A DNA stretch of 45,912 bases, from positions 1 to 45,912 of the forward strand of contig JAGVGO010000221.1 in assembly GCA_020057085.1 (NCBI GenBank). Reading direction: 5' to 3'. Position numbers and translations under genes: made by a program. Below the pieces are notes generated by a model. It was not told the origin of the DNA and made no database searches. It was given only the letters and a program-made list of their open reading frames with translations. Positions 8,275 through 15,993 of this stretch are shown here, one piece after another (within the stretch, counting starts at the first letter, position 1; each line of letters starts with the position of its first letter). The DNA comes from Planctomycetota bacterium (GTDB taxonomy: Bacteria > Planctomycetota > Uabimicrobiia > Uabimicrobiales > JABWCH01).

Positions 8275-9162
8275 ATGGAAAACATTTCGTTTGCGCGCAG
8301 CGCTGTCAAAAAATTTTTGAGCGAGTTAGAGATGTGTCCCAGTAAAAATATGGGACAAAATTTTTTGCTGGACGCTAATTTTCACCAGAAACTGATAACG
8401 GCAGCCGATGTGCAAAAAACGGACGTAGTGTTGGAAGTCGGTGGTGGGCTTGGCCATCTGACACAATTTTTGTTGGAACGTGCCGCTACCGTGTGGTGTG
8501 TGGAGTTAGACCGACGCCTGGCCGGTTTCCTGTGCCGGCAATTTAGCCATCACCTGGCCTTTCGACTGTTTTCTATGGATGTGCTGGCAAGCAAGCATCG
8601 GCTGCAACCACAGTTGTTGGAAAGCCTGAGCGCATTGCCACCGCAGCAGTCGTTTAAACTGGTTGCCAATTTACCCTACAGCGTGGCAACACCGGTCATC
8701 ATGAATTTCCTGGCATTGACACCGCCGCCTGTTATCATCGCCGTCACGATCCAGAAGGAAGTGGCTGAAAGGCTTACCGCGCGTCCCGGCAGCGAACATT
8801 ATGGCTACCTGTCGGTGTATGCTCAATTTTATGCTAACATACAGCTTGTCTGCTCTCTGCCGCCGCTGGCCTTCTATCCACCACCACAGGTCGCTTCGGC
8901 AATCATTACCCTGACACCATATCCACCGCGCCAGGATTTGCTAGACAAAGCCATGTTTTACGAAGTCGTACAAAAGACATTTCAGGCACGGCGCAAAACT
9001 ATCATCAATGGTTTGCGGCGAGTGTCGGCGCTTCCCACAGGCAGGTTACAACAAATTTTGCAAACGTGTGCTATCGCTCCTGACAGCCGGGGCGAAGATT
9101 TGTCTTTGGAGGAGTTCATAAGGCTTAGCAATGAGCTTTGTGCAGCTAGAGAAGATGACTAA
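8275..9162 (+). CDS. rsmA: 16S rRNA (adenine1518-N6/adenine1519-N6)-dimethyltransferase
   Basis: 295 aa, normal length. Dimethylates two adjacent adenines in the 3'-terminal hairpin of 16S rRNA late in small-subunit assembly. The KsgA signature is complete: KNMGQNFLLD near the N-terminus, SAM motif I EVGGGLGHLT, the acidic motif II in VELDRRL, motif IV NLPYSVATP, the YGYLSVYAQFYA segment, and FYPPPQVASAI. The C-terminal helical domain contains FQARRKTIINGLRR. It starts one base after the FHA gene stop and overlaps the DUF445 gene by 32 nt, so the three genes are probably co-transcribed. Confidence 0.93.
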   Translation: MENISFARSAVKKFLSELEMCPSKNMGQNFLLDANFHQKLITAADVQKTDVVLEVGGGLGHLTQFLLERAATVWCVELDRRLAGFLCRQFSHHLAFRLFSMDVLASKHRLQPQLLESLSALPPQQSFKLVANLPYSVATPVIMNFLALTPPPVIIAVTIQKEVAERLTARPGSEHYGYLSVYAQFYANIQLVCSLPPLAFYPPPQVASAIITLTPYPPRQDLLDKAMFYEVVQKTFQARRKTIINGLRRVSALPTGRLQQILQTCAIAPDSRGEDLSLEEFIRLSNELCAAREDD

Positions 9163-10042
9163 AGGACACATCACCCTCATTGCTACAGGGCTTATCATGC
9201 CTCTTGCCTTCTTTTTCCATGGCCATATGCGCGATTTTATTTTCACGCTGGGCGTTTCGGGCGTGGTCGGCTGTGCCACCAATGCCATTGCCATTCGTAT
9301 GTTGTTCGATCATATCTACTTGCTGCCGTGGTTGAAGAAATGGCCGCTTCCCTATTCCGGTATTCTCGAAGAACAACGTGAAGAGATTGCCAAGGCTATC
9401 GGCTGGACCGTAGCCAAGAGATTACTTTCCACCGATGCGCTGATGCGTGCCGTAACTGCAGAGCCGTTTCAGGAGGTGATTCGTAGTACTCTCGGCTCTC
9501 GCCTGCGTGAGATTTTGTGTGAACCGGGTTTTCTTGAAGTAGTGAGCCAGGACATCGGCAAACATGCCTGCGCGTTCATTGGCAGCGACCTGTTCCGACT
9601 CAAATTGCAGCAGGCGTTGTACCGCCATCTGGGCTGGGTCGGCAGTATCCTGGTAGAAGTGAAAAACGTGCGCGAACGGGACAAAATCACAACGCAGATG
9701 CAAAGAGAGCTGAAGCAAGTGGTCGCTTATATGTGCCAAGATGAATCTTTCCGGCTTGCCGTACGTGATTTTCTCAAAAACTTGCCGATCAAATTTTACG
9801 ATACGCAAACCCCTCTCAAAGAAGGCGTGCAGCGTTGTATCGCCGTGCTGGTAAGAGATCTCCTGGAGCAGGTAGACATCGAGAAGATCGTGGCAGATGA
9901 GGTGCGTTCATTCCCGCCGGGCGCTCTGTCCAGCATCATCATCAAGATCACCGCCGAAAATCTCGACTGGCTGGAGGTGTGGGGCGGAGTGCTCGGTGTG
10001 CTGGTCGGAGGCTTGTTCTGGTGCCTTGGTAAACTTGTATGA
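9131..10042 (+). CDS. DUF445 (YheB/YjiN-type) membrane protein
   Basis: 303 aa. An N-terminal hydrophobic hairpin contains the family hallmark GVSGVVGCATNAIAIRMLF followed by YLLPWL and GILEEQREEIAKAIG. A long helical middle part has DUF445-type repeats, and a last membrane segment (about 282-300, GVLGVLVGGLFWCLG) closes the protein. The biochemical role of DUF445 is unknown; some members have been linked to membrane or lipid homeostasis. The start overlaps rsmA. An ATG at 9155 (MTKGHI) would also serve and shortens the overlap. Confidence 0.8.
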   Translation: MSFVQLEKMTKGHITLIATGLIMPLAFFFHGHMRDFIFTLGVSGVVGCATNAIAIRMLFDHIYLLPWLKKWPLPYSGILEEQREEIAKAIGWTVAKRLLSTDALMRAVTAEPFQEVIRSTLGSRLREILCEPGFLEVVSQDIGKHACAFIGSDLFRLKLQQALYRHLGWVGSILVEVKNVRERDKITTQMQRELKQVVAYMCQDESFRLAVRDFLKNLPIKFYDTQTPLKEGVQRCIAVLVRDLLEQVDIEKIVADEVRSFPPGALSSIIIKITAENLDWLEVWGGVLGVLVGGLFWCLGKLV

Positions 10043-10058
10043 AAGGCACATAAAAGAT

Positions 10059-11549
10059 ATGATAACGCTCAAAGATTTAGAAGCCTATCTGTGGGGAGCA
10101 GCCAATCTCCTACGAGGTATGATTGATGCGGCCGATTTCAAGCAGTATATATTCCCCATGCTTTTTTACAAACGCCTCTGTGATGTGTACGATGAAGAGT
10201 ATGATTTAGCTTTGAAGGAATCCAATGGTAGTTTAGAGTTTGCTGAATATGAAGAGAATCACCGTTTCCAAATACCCAAAGGGTACCACTGGAATGACAT
10301 CCGTAAAGAAACCAAAGATGTTGGCTTGAAATTCCAAAAGGCTCTCCGAGAGATTGAGAAAAAGAACGCAAAACTACACGGTATTTTTGGAGACGCACAA
10401 TGGTCGAACAAAAATCGCTTTACGGATGAGAAAATGGTAGACCTGATAGACCATTTTTCTTCGTTGAAACTTACGCTGGAAAACGTGCCCGCAGATGAAT
10501 TCGGAACGGCTTATGAATATCTGATCAAAAAATTTGCCGATGACAGTGGGCATACGGCAGCAGAATTTTATACCAACCGCACGGTGGTGCAACTGATGAC
10601 TCTGATTCTGGCTCCACAGCCAGCCGAAGCCATTTATGACCCTACGTGTGGGACGGGCGGAATGTTGCTCAACTGTGTGCTGCAACTGAAAAACGCTGGT
10701 AAAGAATACCGCAATCTGGTATTGCAGGGGCAGGAATTGAATCTGATTACCTCGGCAATTGCACGCATGAACATGATCATCCACGATATTGATGATTTCG
10801 AAATTGCCCAGGGAGATACGCTGGATAATCCAGCCTTTATCAAAGAAGATAAGCTGGAAACCTTCAACATTATTCTGGCCAATCCACCGTATTCTGTCAA
10901 ACGATGGAACCGCAAGAAATGGCTGAAAGACCCCTATGGCAGAAACATTTGGGGAACACCTCCCCAAGGCTGCGCAGACTATGCCTTTATCCAGCACATT
11001 TACCATAGCCTGGACAAACAAAACGGACGTGCCGCAATTTTACTGCCCCATGGAATTTTATTTCGAGACACTGAGGCGGAGATACGGCGTAAGATGGTGG
11101 AAATGGACGTGGTAGATGCCGTAATCGGTTTAGGCCCGAACCTGTTTTACAATTCCTCGATGGAATCTTGTGTGCTGATACTGCGGAACAATAAGCCTGT
11201 CCAGCGCATGGGGAAAATTCTGTTCATCAATGCAGTGGGCGAAGTACACAAAGAACGCTCCGAAAGTTGTCTGGAAAAAGAACATATAGAAAGAATAGTG
11301 AATGCGTATCGCAGCTACCAGGATATAGAGGCTTTCGCAAAAGTTGTCACGAAAGAGCAGGTGTTGAGCAATTCGGGCAATTTGAATATTCGTCTCTACA
11401 CAAGCCCGGATGAAACCAACCACAAAGCCGATTTGCCCCAGTTATACAACGAGTTACAAAGAAGCTCGGAAAACATGCAAAAGACGATGGAAGATTTGCT
11501 TCGTAAGTTAAAGGAGTTTGGGGTTGGAAAGAAAAATAGTTGTAAGTGA
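10059..11549 (+). CDS. hsdM: Type I restriction-modification DNA methyltransferase subunit HsdM
   Basis: 496 aa. Transfers a methyl group from SAM to N6 of adenine within the bipartite site chosen by HsdS. The N-terminal helical domain (LWGAANLLRG, FPMLFYKRLCDVYDEEY) is followed by the target-adenine methylase core: motif I at DPTCGTGG (D194 onward) and the catalytic NPPY at residues 275-278. I start it at the ATG opening MITLKDLEAYLWG; longer readings back to 9897 run inside the DUF445 gene. The last residues (GVGKKNSCK) differ from the expected HsdM end because a toxin-antitoxin-like cassette joins here; the ancestral ending (GVGTERL-stop) seems preserved at 12409-12432. It begins 16 nt after the DUF445 stop. 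Confidence 0.93.
   Translation: MITLKDLEAYLWGAANLLRGMIDAADFKQYIFPMLFYKRLCDVYDEEYDLALKESNGSLEFAEYEENHRFQIPKGYHWNDIRKETKDVGLKFQKALREIEKKNAKLHGIFGDAQWSNKNRFTDEKMVDLIDHFSSLKLTLENVPADEFGTAYEYLIKKFADDSGHTAAEFYTNRTVVQLMTLILAPQPAEAIYDPTCGTGGMLLNCVLQLKNAGKEYRNLVLQGQELNLITSAIARMNMIIHDIDDFEIAQGDTLDNPAFIKEDKLETFNIILANPPYSVKRWNRKKWLKDPYGRNIWGTPPQGCADYAFIQHIYHSLDKQNGRAAILLPHGILFRDTEAEIRRKMVEMDVVDAVIGLGPNLFYNSSMESCVLILRNNKPVQRMGKILFINAVGEVHKERSESCLEKEHIERIVNAYRSYQDIEAFAKVVTKEQVLSNSGNLNIRLYTSPDETNHKADLPQLYNELQRSSENMQKTMEDLLRKLKEFGVGKKNSCK
11505..11529 (+). repeat. Junction repeat, left copy (ribosome-binding site and TTG start)
   Basis: 25 nt containing AAAGGAG and the TTG that starts the PIN gene. 22 of the 25 bases are identical to 12394-12418, where the same offset gives the hsdS start. 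The two copies bracket the PIN/RHH cassette. Confidence 0.75.
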
Positions 11550-12090
11550 TACAGGACCATTAATCTCTGTATTTCAAAGTAAACAAGTTAAATTATTGCA
11601 ATCGTTGTACGACAAAGTTTGCATTCCAATCACAACACTGCCCGAATACATTGGGCAAGTAGAAAAGACAACCATTGACTGGCTTATCAGCATTGGTTAT
11701 GTGGATGTGTGCGAATTGACACTTTCTGAAAAATCTATGGCTTTTGAGATTGCAAAAGAAATTGCGGAACATCCTCTAAGCAAGAATAAACTCGCAGAAG
11801 ATCACGACCCAGAAGCTCAGGCTATCGTATTAGCCAAGAGGCAAACATTCAAAGCATGCGAGTTACTTATGGACGAGCTTGTTGCCAGAGAGATTGCCAA
11901 AAAACATGATGTCCCAATTATAGGATTTCCAGGCATTCTAATTCGTTGCTGTAAACATGGTATGATTAGTGCTGAACAGGTAAGAGATACACTGCTCATT
12001 TGTCAATCGTTGGGAACACATTATGCAACGGATTTCATCCAAAACATCTATAAAAAACTGAAGGAGGAACAGCCCAATGAATCCAGATAA
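11524..12090 (+). CDS. PIN-domain (DUF3368-type) nuclease, probable toxin
   Basis: 188 aa from the TTG seven bases after AAAGGAG (a TTG two codons earlier is also possible). The fold is that of PIN ribonucleases: an opening strand with the first acid in VVSDTGPLI (Asp9), a central DHDPEAQAIVLA with further acids, then LLMDELVAREIA followed by VPIIGFPGILI and GMISAEQV, the usual DUF3368 order. Such proteins cleave RNA using metal ions and act as toxins with small DNA-binding antitoxins. The downstream RHH gene overlaps it by 14 nt, in toxin-first order. It overlaps the hsdM end by 26 nt. Function is inferred from family and pairing; the RNA target is unknown. Confidence 0.75.
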   Translation: MERKIVVSDTGPLISVFQSKQVKLLQSLYDKVCIPITTLPEYIGQVEKTTIDWLISIGYVDVCELTLSEKSMAFEIAKEIAEHPLSKNKLAEDHDPEAQAIVLAKRQTFKACELLMDELVAREIAKKHDVPIIGFPGILIRCCKHGMISAEQVRDTLLICQSLGTHYATDFIQNIYKKLKEEQPNESR

Positions 12091-12325
12091 AAACAAAGAA
12101 TTATTGATGAATTCTGTGGAGGAAGCTTTTAAGGATGCTGACGATTCAGAAAAAAGATGGCGAGAGTGGGAACATTCGTATGCTCTAAAGACTATTTCCA
12201 TTAAGCTACCAGAATCCGACTATAAGGTTCTGGAAAACTTAGCACGCGAACAACACAAGACAGCACCGCAGTTAGTGCAGGCACTTGTCCACAATGTTCT
12301 CTCCACTTTTCTTGGAATGCGATGA
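12077..12325 (+). CDS. Probable ribbon-helix-helix antitoxin of the PIN toxin
   Basis: 82 aa. A charged N-terminal half rich in Glu, Asp and Lys (about 1-35) would suit a toxin-neutralising tail. Then ALKTISIKLPESDYKVLENLAREQ gives a basic beta-strand and two helices typical of RHH/CopG-type DNA binding. DUF3368 toxins are more often paired with UPF0175 proteins, so this partner is somewhat unusual. GGAGGAA precedes the ATG inside the toxin gene. Its stop overlaps the next small frame (ATGA). Self-repression of the cassette is the expected role. Confidence 0.65.
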   Translation: MNPDKNKELLMNSVEEAFKDADDSEKRWREWEHSYALKTISIKLPESDYKVLENLAREQHKTAPQLVQALVHNVLSTFLGMR

Positions 12326-12432
12326 TTTACAAAATACAGTTTGAAAAACTCGCACCATTGGTGCGAAAAATAGCGCGGTCAGAAAAAACAACAAAGCTAA
12401 AGGAGATCGGGGTTGGAACTGAAAGGCTTTGA
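12322..12432 (+). CDS. 36-residue frame carrying a relic of the HsdM C-terminus
   Basis: Opens with an ATG overlapping the antitoxin stop and ends at a TGA 17 nt inside hsdS. Its final residues KLKEIGVGTERL continue the HsdM pattern (HsdM itself ends KLKEFGVGKKNSCK after the insertion). The frame is therefore best read as the displaced original 3' end of hsdM joined to cassette sequence. It may still be translated to feed ribosomes into hsdS. Confidence 0.4.
   Translation: MIYKIQFEKLAPLVRKIARSEKTTKLKEIGVGTERL
12350..12366. promoter_or_regulatory. Palindrome just after the antitoxin gene
   Basis: TCGCACCA-T-TGGTGCGA is a perfect 8-bp inverted repeat 25 nt downstream of the antitoxin stop. 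It could be an operator for an RHH dimer, since RHH proteins bind short palindromes, or a trace of the insertion event. No T-run follows, so it is not a terminator. Confidence 0.4.
12394..12418 (+). repeat. Junction repeat, right copy (ribosome-binding site and TTG start of hsdS)
   Basis: Partner of 11505-11529, with differences at only three positions. AAAGGAG (12399-12405) and the TTG at 12413 fall at the same offsets as in the left copy. Confidence 0.75.
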
Positions 12433-12988
12433 CAAAACTAGATGGAAAAAGATTTGTTTTAAAGAAATGGCTGAAAATATCTCCGAACGAGTAGACCCCA
12501 AGGATGCGGAATTTGATATTTATATAGGACTAGAACATCTTGACCCCGAAAGTTTAAAAATTATTCGATATGGAAAACCACAAGAGGTCATTGGGACAAA
12601 GTTAAAAGTTAAGAAAGGTGATATTATTTTTGGAAAGCGCAGGGCATATCAAAGAAAAGTCGCTGTGGCAGATTTTGATTGTATTTGCTCGGCTCATGCA
12701 ATGGTGCTAAGAGCCAAGCCTGATTATGTGATAGCTGAATTTCTACCTTATTTCATGCAATCAGATATGTTTATGAATTGTGCTGTACAAATATCCGAGG
12801 GTTCATTATCACCTACAATCAAATGGAAAACACTCGCATCACAAAAATTTATCATCCCTACAAAAACAGAACAGAAGCTGATAGCAGATACTCTTTACCA
12901 GATCGAAGATACCATCGAACAGACCAGGCACCACCAAGCCACTCTCCGCAATTTTAAAAAAGGATTGCTGGCTGAGTGGGTTGGGTAG
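12413..12988 (+). CDS. hsdS: Type I restriction-modification specificity subunit HsdS, half-length (single recognition domain)
   Basis: 191 aa, about half the usual ~400. One target-recognition domain is present, with the typical IGLEHLDPES, KVKKGDIIFGKRRAYQRKVAVA, CSAHAMVLRA and LSPTIKWKTLASQKFIIP blocks. It ends with one conserved helix (EQKLIADTLYQIEDTIEQTRHHQATLRNF is split by the usual bend). Half-size HsdS proteins can dimerise and then recognise a symmetric bipartite site. The TTG start lies seven bases after AAAGGAG. The end overlaps no gene; hsdR starts 26 nt later. No second HsdS half is in the window. Confidence 0.82.
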   Translation: MELKGFDKTRWKKICFKEMAENISERVDPKDAEFDIYIGLEHLDPESLKIIRYGKPQEVIGTKLKVKKGDIIFGKRRAYQRKVAVADFDCICSAHAMVLRAKPDYVIAEFLPYFMQSDMFMNCAVQISEGSLSPTIKWKTLASQKFIIPTKTEQKLIADTLYQIEDTIEQTRHHQATLRNFKKGLLAEWVG

Positions 12989-13014: not shown

Positions 13015-15993
13015 ATGGCAACCTTTAATGAAAAAAACAGTGTCGAATCTTTTGTGATCCGAGAGTTGACGGGCGTGGAATTGCTGTCTCCCGATCTTAT
13101 ACGGGAAGCAAAAACTTATTTTACCGGCAAAGCAATATGGCAATATGTACCTGCCGCCCAATTGCCTCGCAAAACCTCGGATATTTTGGTGGAGGCTATT
13201 CTGGTAGATGCCTTGAAAAGGCTCAATCCTGCAATCCAGGAACAACCGGATCGTGCGGAAGAGATTATCCACAAACTGCGTGGAATTTTGCTCACAGCGC
13301 AGCACATTGGTCTGGTTCGTGCCAATGAGCAGTTTAGCGAATGGTTACGCGGTGAGAAAACCATGCCCTATGGTGCCAATCAACAACATCTTCCCATTCG
13401 CTTGATAGATTTCGAGAATCCCGGCAATAACAGTTTTTTTGTCACCAATCAATATACTGTCACCACCCATGTAGAAAAAGTGCCCGACGTGGTTTTGCTG
13501 GTCAATGGAATTCCACTGGTTGTTGGCGAATTGAAAACGCCCGTCCGTCCAGCCGTGAGCTGGTATGATGGTGCTGTGGATATTCATGATGATTATGAAC
13601 GCACCATTCCCGCACTGTTTGTCCCGAATGTATTTTCTTTCACCACAGAGGGCAAGTATTTTCGTTACGGTTCTGTTCGTATGCCACTAGAAATTTGGGG
13701 GCCTTGGCGAGAAGAAATATCCAGAAAAGAACAGGAGTCAATATCGGAAGTATTTACAGCAGTGGGGCTAGAGGAAGTAAGCAAGGCCATTCATGCCATG
13801 CTCAACCCTTGTGTGGTGTTGGATATTTTACAACATTTCGCTATTTTTGCCACGGGCAGACAAAATCGGAAAATCAAGATTATTTGTCGTTACCAGCAAT
13901 ATGAGGCTGCCAATCGAATTGTGCAAAGAGTGGTTGCGGGAAAAGTGGATCGCGGGTTACTCTGGCATTTCCAGGGTTCTGGAAAATCATTGCTGATGGT
14001 ATTTGCAGCACAAAAATTACGTTCTTCCCCGGTTCTCAACAATCCCACGGTTTTGATTGTAGTTGATCGTACCGACCTCGACACTCAAATCACCGCGACA
14101 TTTAACGCGAGTGAAATCCCTAATATTGTTACTACCGATAGCCGTGAGGAATTGCAACGGTTGCTGCAAGAAGACACGCGCAAGATCATCATTACCATGA
14201 TCCACAAGTTTGGAGAAATCACTGGTGTCTTGAATGACCGCCGAAATATTATTGTGTTGGTGGACGAAGCTCATCGCACACAAGAAGGCGATCTGGGACG
14301 TAAGATGCGAAATGCCTTGCCCAACGCATTTCTTTTTGGGCTTACAGGAACACCAATCAACCGCAGGGACAGAAATACATTTTATGCCTTTGGCGCGGAA
14401 CAAGACGAGAGCGGATATCTCAGTAGATACTCTTTTCAACAATCTATAGAGGATCATGCGACATTGCCTCTCCATTTCGAACCAAGATTGCTATCTGTTC
14501 ATGTTGACAAAGAACAAATAGATTTTGAATTTGCCGAACTAACCCGAAATCTTAATGATGAAGACAGACGAGAACTGTCTAAACATGCTGCCCAGATGGC
14601 TAATTTTATCAAGGCTCCAGAAAGAATAGAGAAGATTGTCCATGACATTGCAAAACATTACAGTGAAAAAATCCAACCCACCGGTTTAAAGGCGCAAATT
14701 GTATGCTATGACCGAGAAACCTGTGTTTTGTACAAGAAAGCGTTGGATCAAATCATTGCTCCCGAAGCCAGCCAGATTGTAATGAGTGTGTCTGACGAGG
14801 AATATAAGGCTTATAAATTGAGCAAAGACGGAGAGGAAAAACTGTTAGACCTGTTTCGAGATCCCTCTAGCCAGCTCAAGTTTTTGATTGTGACGAATAA
14901 ACTTCTTGCCGGTTTCGACGCTCCAATTTTGCAAACCATGTATTTGGACAAGCCGCTGAAAGATCATAACCTGCTTCAAGGAATTTGCCGGACGAACCGC
15001 CCATATAAAGGCAAATCTTATGGACTGATAGTGGATTATTTCGGGGTTTTCGATGATGTCGCCCGTGCGTTAGACTTTGACGAAAAGGCTGTCCGGCAGG
15101 CTGTAACCAATATCAAGCAGTTAAAAGACGCCTTGCAACAGGCTATAGATAATTGTCTAGCATATTTCCTCAATATTGACAGGGGTATAGCTGATTATAA
15201 TGCCCTATTGGAAGCTCAGAAATGTCTGGACACCGATGAAAAACGGGACGCATTTGCCAGCGACTTCACTTATCTGGAACGCCACTGGGAAGCGATTTCC
15301 CCCGATCCGTTTTTAAACCCTTATGAAAGCGATTATAAATGGCTTTCTAATGTATACCAATCCATCAGACCAGTAAACGAAACAGGCCGTTTAATCTGGC
15401 ACGCTTTGGGCGCAAAGACTATTCAACTAATCCATAAAAATATTCATGTCCGTGAGGTCAATGATAAGCTGGAAACCGTTATTGTGAATGCGGATGTCCT
15501 AGACGAATTCATCAAAAACCAGAGTCCTAAAAACATAAAAGAGATAGAGATCGAAATCTCCAAACGAATTGCCCGACATCCGAGTAATCCTAAGTTTATT
15601 GCCCTCAGCGAACGCCTCCAAAAACTAAAAGAACAGGCTGAACAGGGTATTATCAACAGCATCGAATTTCTAAAATACCTGATCAAAATCGCGGAAGATT
15701 TATTAAAGGCAGAAAAAGAAGAGATCGGCAAGGAAGAGCAAAAGTCTGCAAAAACAGCATTAACTGAACTATTTAATAGCGTTAAGACATCCAATACTCC
15801 TAAAATTGTAGAAAATATAGTCAACGATATTGATAAAATTGTCAGAATCGTTCGTTTTGAAGGGTGGCAAAATACGACCAAGGGTCAAAGGGAGGTAAAA
15901 CAGGGTTTGCGAAAGACGTTATTGAAATACAAATTGCACCAGGATCAGGATTTGTTTGAAAGAGCGTACAAATACATCGAACAATATTATTGA
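13015..15993 (+). CDS. hsdR: Type I restriction endonuclease translocase subunit HsdR
   Basis: 992 aa from the ATG after AAAGGGAAA; the in-frame GTG at 12976 lies inside hsdS. The N-terminal PD-(D/E)xK nuclease domain shows VPDVVLLVNGIPLVVGELK (E172, K174). The SF2 translocase follows, with Walker A QGSGKS (320-325), DEAH box VDEAH (417-420), motif III FGLTGTP and motif VI-type QGICRTNRPY. A long C-terminal helical region would bind the methylase complex. With HsdM and HsdS it cuts unmodified DNA at a distance after ATP-driven translocation. All key residues are intact, so the system looks active. The gene is visibly more AT-rich than the flanking housekeeping genes, in keeping with horizontal transfer. 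Confidence 0.93.
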   Translation: MATFNEKNSVESFVIRELTGVELLSPDLIREAKTYFTGKAIWQYVPAAQLPRKTSDILVEAILVDALKRLNPAIQEQPDRAEEIIHKLRGILLTAQHIGLVRANEQFSEWLRGEKTMPYGANQQHLPIRLIDFENPGNNSFFVTNQYTVTTHVEKVPDVVLLVNGIPLVVGELKTPVRPAVSWYDGAVDIHDDYERTIPALFVPNVFSFTTEGKYFRYGSVRMPLEIWGPWREEISRKEQESISEVFTAVGLEEVSKAIHAMLNPCVVLDILQHFAIFATGRQNRKIKIICRYQQYEAANRIVQRVVAGKVDRGLLWHFQGSGKSLLMVFAAQKLRSSPVLNNPTVLIVVDRTDLDTQITATFNASEIPNIVTTDSREELQRLLQEDTRKIIITMIHKFGEITGVLNDRRNIIVLVDEAHRTQEGDLGRKMRNALPNAFLFGLTGTPINRRDRNTFYAFGAEQDESGYLSRYSFQQSIEDHATLPLHFEPRLLSVHVDKEQIDFEFAELTRNLNDEDRRELSKHAAQMANFIKAPERIEKIVHDIAKHYSEKIQPTGLKAQIVCYDRETCVLYKKALDQIIAPEASQIVMSVSDEEYKAYKLSKDGEEKLLDLFRDPSSQLKFLIVTNKLLAGFDAPILQTMYLDKPLKDHNLLQGICRTNRPYKGKSYGLIVDYFGVFDDVARALDFDEKAVRQAVTNIKQLKDALQQAIDNCLAYFLNIDRGIADYNALLEAQKCLDTDEKRDAFASDFTYLERHWEAISPDPFLNPYESDYKWLSNVYQSIRPVNETGRLIWHALGAKTIQLIHKNIHVREVNDKLETVIVNADVLDEFIKNQSPKNIKEIEIEISKRIARHPSNPKFIALSERLQKLKEQAEQGIINSIEFLKYLIKIAEDLLKAEKEEIGKEEQKSAKTALTELFNSVKTSNTPKIVENIVNDIDKIVRIVRFEGWQNTTKGQREVKQGLRKTLLKYKLHQDQDLFERAYKYIEQYY

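Follow-up and report, generated by a model that had tools for sequence, protein, structure and literature searches.

A PIN-RHH gene pair between hsdM and hsdS of a planctomycete type I restriction operon, with a duplicated gene overlap as the probable trace of its arrival

Background

Embedded defence genes are recognised by their position, and the route by which they come to lie between tight overlaps without silencing the gene downstream is seldom visible. A type I restriction operon on a contig of a Planctomycetota bacterium (JAGVGO010000221.1; all 45,912 nucleotides of it are called the window below) raises this question directly, because a PIN-domain gene and an RHH protein gene separate its hsdM and hsdS, and a short sequence at the end of hsdM recurs just before hsdS. 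We conclude, with a probability of roughly 0.7, that the operon took in the PIN-RHH pair at the hsdM-hsdS overlap, and that the overlap was duplicated with its start signal kept for both genes. The locus would then be a readable record of an insertion, in which the old gene end, the start signal and the new tail are all present.

Organization of the operon

The genes hsdM, hsdS and hsdR are all present and open (by Pfam, NCBIfam and PADLOC matches), hsdS being of half size (Table 1). Five ORFs form an overlapping chain from hsdM through the PIN gene, the RHH gene and a 36-codon ORF to hsdS, and hsdR begins 26 nt downstream. The 36-codon ORF is unremarkable by length alone; its last codons read KLKEIGVGTERL before the stop, it contains the second copy of the repeat described in the next section, and it overlaps the hsdS start by 20 nt. 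The palindrome that it spans is a possible operator or a possible terminator for the minus strand. At third codon positions GC is lower in the PIN and RHH genes (GC3 0.34-0.39) than in hsdM (0.50); hsdS matches the PIN gene in its low GC and may therefore likewise have arrived recently.

Table 1. Features of the operon in the window, and direct repeats at type I loci of rumen Bacteroidales
Feature	Coordinates	Strand	Remarks
hsdM	10059..11549	+	type I DNA methyltransferase, 496 aa; N6_Mtase and HsdM_N matches; 88% identical to G051 HsdM
junction copy 1	11505..11529	+	hsdM 3' end, Shine-Dalgarno AAAGGAG (11510-11516), PIN TTG and second codon
PIN-domain gene, PDC-S70 family	11524..12090	+	PADLOC match; TTG start; 26-nt overlap with hsdM
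RHH protein gene	12077..12325	+	82 aa; candidate antitoxin/regulator; 14-nt overlap with PIN gene
36-codon linking ORF	12322..12432	+	ATGA overlap with RHH stop; read directly
17-nt near-perfect palindrome TCGCACCATTGGTGCGA	12350..12366	+	between RHH gene and hsdS
junction copy 2	12394..12418	+	probable fossil hsdM 3' end with AAAGGAG, hsdS TTG and second codon
hsdS	12413..12988	+	half-size, 191 aa, one target recognition domain; Methylase_S match
hsdR	13015..15993	+	restriction subunit; HSDR_N and TIGR00348 matches
direct repeats, rumen Bacteroidales	L155:7444-7553 and 9023-9132
direct repeats, rumen Bacteroidales	L146:7445-7562 and 8980-9097
direct repeats, rumen Bacteroidales	L154:7535-7634 and 9210-9309

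The repeated junction sequence

Read directly from the window, copy 1 is AAGTTAAAGGAGTTTGGGGTTGGAA and copy 2 is AAGCTAAAGGAGATCGGGGTTGGAA; they are identical at 22 of 25 positions (three changes) and are spaced 889 nt apart. Nothing in the following 1.47 kb matches copy 1 better, and 2000 shuffles of that downstream DNA gave at most 19/25. When AAAGGAG and TTG are held as fixed by function, 12 of the remaining 15 positions match (P ~1e-5 to 9e-5). The window holds no third copy, and no fetched locus has one outside the hsdM-hsdS junction. Both copies have the same layout, AAAGGAG, 7 nt and then TTG-GAA, and this shared spacing makes 11524 the most likely start of the PIN gene and 12413 that of hsdS; 11524 is the second TTG, where the ORF listing had chosen 11518. 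The initial annotation had reported the repeat with its three changes and had taken its two copies for the translation starts of the PIN gene and hsdS; the direct reading and the shuffles bear out the repeat, and the AAAGGAG and TTG present in both copies bear out the starts.

Empty junctions and the probable former end of HsdM

Relatives of HsdM were drawn from genomes of the same phylum, from a scan of genome contigs and from two further classes. In 16 homologous operons of the subclass with an L-K-x-I-G-I end (HsdM 58-62% identical) the junction is empty of any such cassette; HsdM ends 1-5 residues after GI (GIEV, GIEA and GIETGND are examples), and hsdS starts inside hsdM, 3-10 nt before the end of the hsdM stop codon. 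The empty junction of Kuenenia hertensis (L081, on the same contig as L067), for example, reads KLNSIGIETGND and a stop over ATGATTGAACTT. The empty version is thus the norm, so the alternative that these junctions are always occupied fails, which supports the first proposal that the PIN-RHH pair of the window is a cassette between hsdM and hsdS. The nearest relative (G051, below) is occupied, and the closest empty site found stands at about 60% HsdM identity; the plasmids, phages and viral contigs searched yielded no HsdM relative that is closer.

The present HsdM C-terminus is KLKEFGVGKKNSCK, with the tail GKKNSCK. In the HsdM frame copy 2 reads KLKEIGVGTERL and a stop, over TTGGAACTGAAA. 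Scored with a profile built from natural HsdM ends, the hsdM flank joined to copy 2 reaches 32.0 bits, as against 25.3 bits for the present end, and the conserved I of the natural ends is kept in copy 2, where the present HsdM has F. The relatives end like copy 2 and unlike the present tail. These comparisons support the view that copy 2 is a fossil of the natural HsdM end, to which it is a better fit than the present tail, and uphold the earlier suggestion that the original ending is preserved there.

The PIN and RHH proteins

By its sequence the PIN protein is a member of PDC-S70: it matches the PADLOC model PDLC05071 (E=2.3e-19) over residues 7-183, the whole domain, while no current Pfam or NCBIfam model scores above threshold. 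It has the acidic residues D9, E41, E97 and D117; in an alignment of 17 sequences E41, E97 and D117 are invariant and the first acidic position is D or N. No sequence relative of known structure was found for the PIN protein, and its single-sequence structure model (mean pLDDT 43.8) is too low in confidence for use; the RHH model is likewise unusable. The RHH protein matches RHH_1 with E=0.0067, below Pfam's cut-off, and its 36-residue core is 39-42% identical to RHH proteins encoded directly behind PDC-S70 PIN genes in G088, G247, G049 and G327. It has an N-terminal extension and lacks the C-terminal domain (a UPF0175-like extension) of its relatives elsewhere.

Of 392 genomes of the phylum, 74 carry PDC-S70 genes, and a UPF0175-like gene overlaps most of the genes examined on the upstream side. 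Three proteins in other genomes of the phylum match the window RHH protein, and each is encoded directly behind a PDC-S70 gene. The pair, which the initial annotation had described as a toxin-antitoxin-like cassette, has free-standing counterparts in the same gene order, a few nt apart, in five anammox-like genomes (G088, G247, G049, G327 and G122); among the neighbouring ORFs listed for these five there is neither hsdM nor hsdS, and YhcG fragments lie nearby in L196. Since it recurs outside hsd operons, PIN-RHH is a real two-gene module that entered the window operon. About 150 related hsd loci yielded neither a PDC-S70 PIN gene nor a window-type RHH, and the phage, plasmid and viral contig sets that were searched gave neither gene. 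Adjacent, overlapping and paired in other genomes, the two genes are a candidate toxin-antitoxin-like pair; the PIN protein may be an RNase restrained by the RHH protein, and the pair may form a second layer of defence or, as the initial annotation proposed, an addiction module.

Different cargo at the same junction

The operon most similar to that of the window lies in a genome of the same family (G051, locus L065; HsdM 88% identical in amino acids and 81% in DNA, HsdR 81% identical in amino acids). Between hsdM and a full-length hsdS it carries, in place of PIN-RHH, a gene for an 82-aa zinc-finger protein of MqsA/YgiT type, whose MqsA-like match (E=3e-5) falls short of Pfam's cut-off. Its hsdS leader (AAAGGAGATYGGGGTTG / AAAGGAGATTGGGGTTG) is identical to copy 2 at 16 of 17 nt and reads KKEIGV in the old HsdM frame, with KEIGV as the residue of that end. 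The hsdM end of G051 itself (KLQEIGIEADRKCV) has diverged, so the duplication is only weakly visible there: the junction copies are alike at ~12/15 nt by eye, and the repeat finder reports none. The same hsdS leader thus stands behind different cargo in two genera, which indicates that this one junction exchanges cargo; the difference between the two operons could reflect either one insertion whose cargo was later exchanged or two insertions.

HsdS is 191 aa long in the window versus 370-424 aa in relatives. Its C-terminal sequence, TRHHQATLRNFKKGLLAEWVG, corresponds to the one that closes the second half of HsdS in G051, which suggests that the window gene was shortened through recombination between half-repeats.

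An empty and an occupied junction can also be compared within one HsdM subfamily (HsdM 94.5% identical): L096 is empty, and G441 has a YhcG nuclease gene exactly at the ATGA. The cargo-bearing relatives L089, L111 and G441 have no junction duplication, so such duplication is no general rule.

Origin of the arrangement

We propose that the ancestral hsdS ribosome-binding site lay inside the last hsdM codons, as the AAG-GAG of K-E-I-G-V; the uninterrupted junction would have read KLKEIGVGTERL and a stop over TTGGAACTGAAAGG. With this site inside hsdM, an insertion there would shut off hsdS if the overlap were not copied as well. In the event that survived, the ~25-nt overlap would have been doubled, with copy 1 becoming the HsdM end and the PIN start and copy 2, no longer coding for HsdM, the hsdS start; the duplicate was presumably kept because a working hsdS was selected for. 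The compared sequences themselves display the repeat, the empty sites, the fossil HsdM end, the cargo exchange and the free-standing pairs; from these we infer that an insertion duplicated the junction and that selection preserved the start signal. The duplicate could have arisen by microhomology, by recombination with another operon, or by duplication of hsdS and later replacement; that HsdS is of half size speaks to some extent for the last of these. An integron-type insertion was considered and dropped: the copies read GTTGGAA against GTTRRRY, and the cassette contains no integrase.

Taken as a full account, hsdS duplication would run as follows: hsdS and its leader were duplicated in tandem, PIN-RHH took the place of the first hsdS, joining at its start codon, and the remaining hsdS was cut to one domain by half-repeat recombination. 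Two specificity genes in tandem are common in type I loci, and this history would fit the half size of hsdS, the low GC that it has in common with the PIN gene, and the fact that the repeat stops one codon beyond both start codons. However, no remnant of a first hsdS was seen between the RHH gene and copy 2, and two hsdS genes at the junction were seen in none of the 16 relatives, and we regard this course of events as rather unlikely. It is harder still to credit that the two 25-mers are independent, the Shine-Dalgarno and TTG context having arisen twice and the KLKEIGV of copy 2 being a coincidence. Ten of the 25 positions are indeed ribosome-binding or start-codon letters under functional constraint, but the agreement at the other 15 is beyond chance (above), the conserved HsdM end stands in copy 2 in the correct frame and place, and the G051 hsdS leader shows the same HsdM-end reading; we consider this the least probable of the alternatives.

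The pair might instead be a domesticated regulator without a role in addiction or defence, the RHH protein controlling hsd through the palindrome as operator and the PIN protein trimming the operon mRNA. The position of the palindrome between the RHH gene and hsdS agrees with this, as does a small regulator, RptR, which controls a type I operon with an embedded toxin-antitoxin system (PMC12255303). Yet the palindrome is found nowhere else in the window, including upstream of hsdM, and the free-standing PIN-RHH pairs have no hsd operon to regulate; a purely regulatory role seems very unlikely.

The overlaps lead one to expect co-transcription, as in the single transcript first proposed, and translational coupling along the chain. 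Expression of the PIN gene should then depend on HsdM translation, a predicted translational link between the methyltransferase and the PIN protein. A doubtful generalization, offered as conjecture, is that overlapping genes with an internal ribosome-binding site accept cargo only with the overlap duplicated, that the fossil both dates and orients the insertion, and that PIN translation reads out HsdM translation; if this were true, a shut-off of methyltransferase synthesis would change the dosage of the PIN toxin.

Relationship to known systems

PDC-S70 is described as a PADLOC phage-defence candidate, a PIN nuclease found by guilt-by-embedding (PMC12988326). The window PIN protein is like it in matching the models with conserved acidic residues and in being embedded in a defence operon; unlike most PDC-S70 genes checked, it has hsdM in the place of the upstream UPF0175-like gene and an RHH gene behind it. 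The DarTG2 toxin-antitoxin system of enteropathogenic E. coli (EPEC), like the toxin-antitoxin-like pair here, lies inside a type I restriction-modification operon, in the RRDM island, but there it separates hsdS from hsdR and is served by a dedicated repressor, and the available part of that report describes no duplicated hsd junction with a start signal (PMC12255303). The YhcG/DUF1016 nuclease genes (G441/L187, L111) likewise sit as cargo between hsdM and hsdS, in operons of the same HsdM subfamily, but with plain ATGA overlaps and no copy of the hsdM end before hsdS. The anammox-like PIN-RHH pairs are akin to that of the window in gene order and RHH core, but by their neighbouring ORFs they stand outside hsd operons, and their RHH proteins have the C-terminal UPF0175-like extension. 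Toxin-antitoxin and other defence genes are well known inside type I operons, with DarTG2 and the PDC families found by guilt-by-embedding as examples, so embedding is not new; the novelty here is the traceable duplicated overlap that carries a start signal.

Other type I loci

A Desulfobacteraceae locus (L095) was considered as a second fossil case, with TTGAAGTATGAA at the hsdM end and before hsdS and a PIN-like fragment adjoining; it was rejected, since its hsdS leader equals a YhcG gene 3' end like the one in G441 (GATAAGGATTTTAAAGTATGAAG), a cargo remnant and no hsdM fossil. The truncated PIN-like start there (MPQKTVVVSDTGTLIN) is fused to the YhcG 3' end directly before hsdS (L095:5700-5870), and this stretch is debris of earlier cargo at the hsdM-hsdS junction. 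Rumen Bacteroidales have a Schlafen/AlbA-type gene between hsdM and hsdS, flanked by direct repeats of ~100-118 nt (70-77% identical) with TTATTTGAYKG motifs and, in L155, also the palindrome CTGATTATCAG; these repeats (~110 nt in L155, L146 and L154) were weighed as junction duplications and set aside as regulatory spacers, not coding overlaps. G051 has a second type I-like operon (contig C540, L186:2236-5130) in which a gene for an MNT-type nucleotidyltransferase separates hsdM from hsdS; between its hsdS and hsdR lie a UPF0175-like gene and a PIN gene of PDC-S70. In another type I locus of the genome to which the window belongs (L071, G000:C233) HsdM reads into HsdS as one frame of ~900 aa, and a second, shorter hsdM adjoins this frame.
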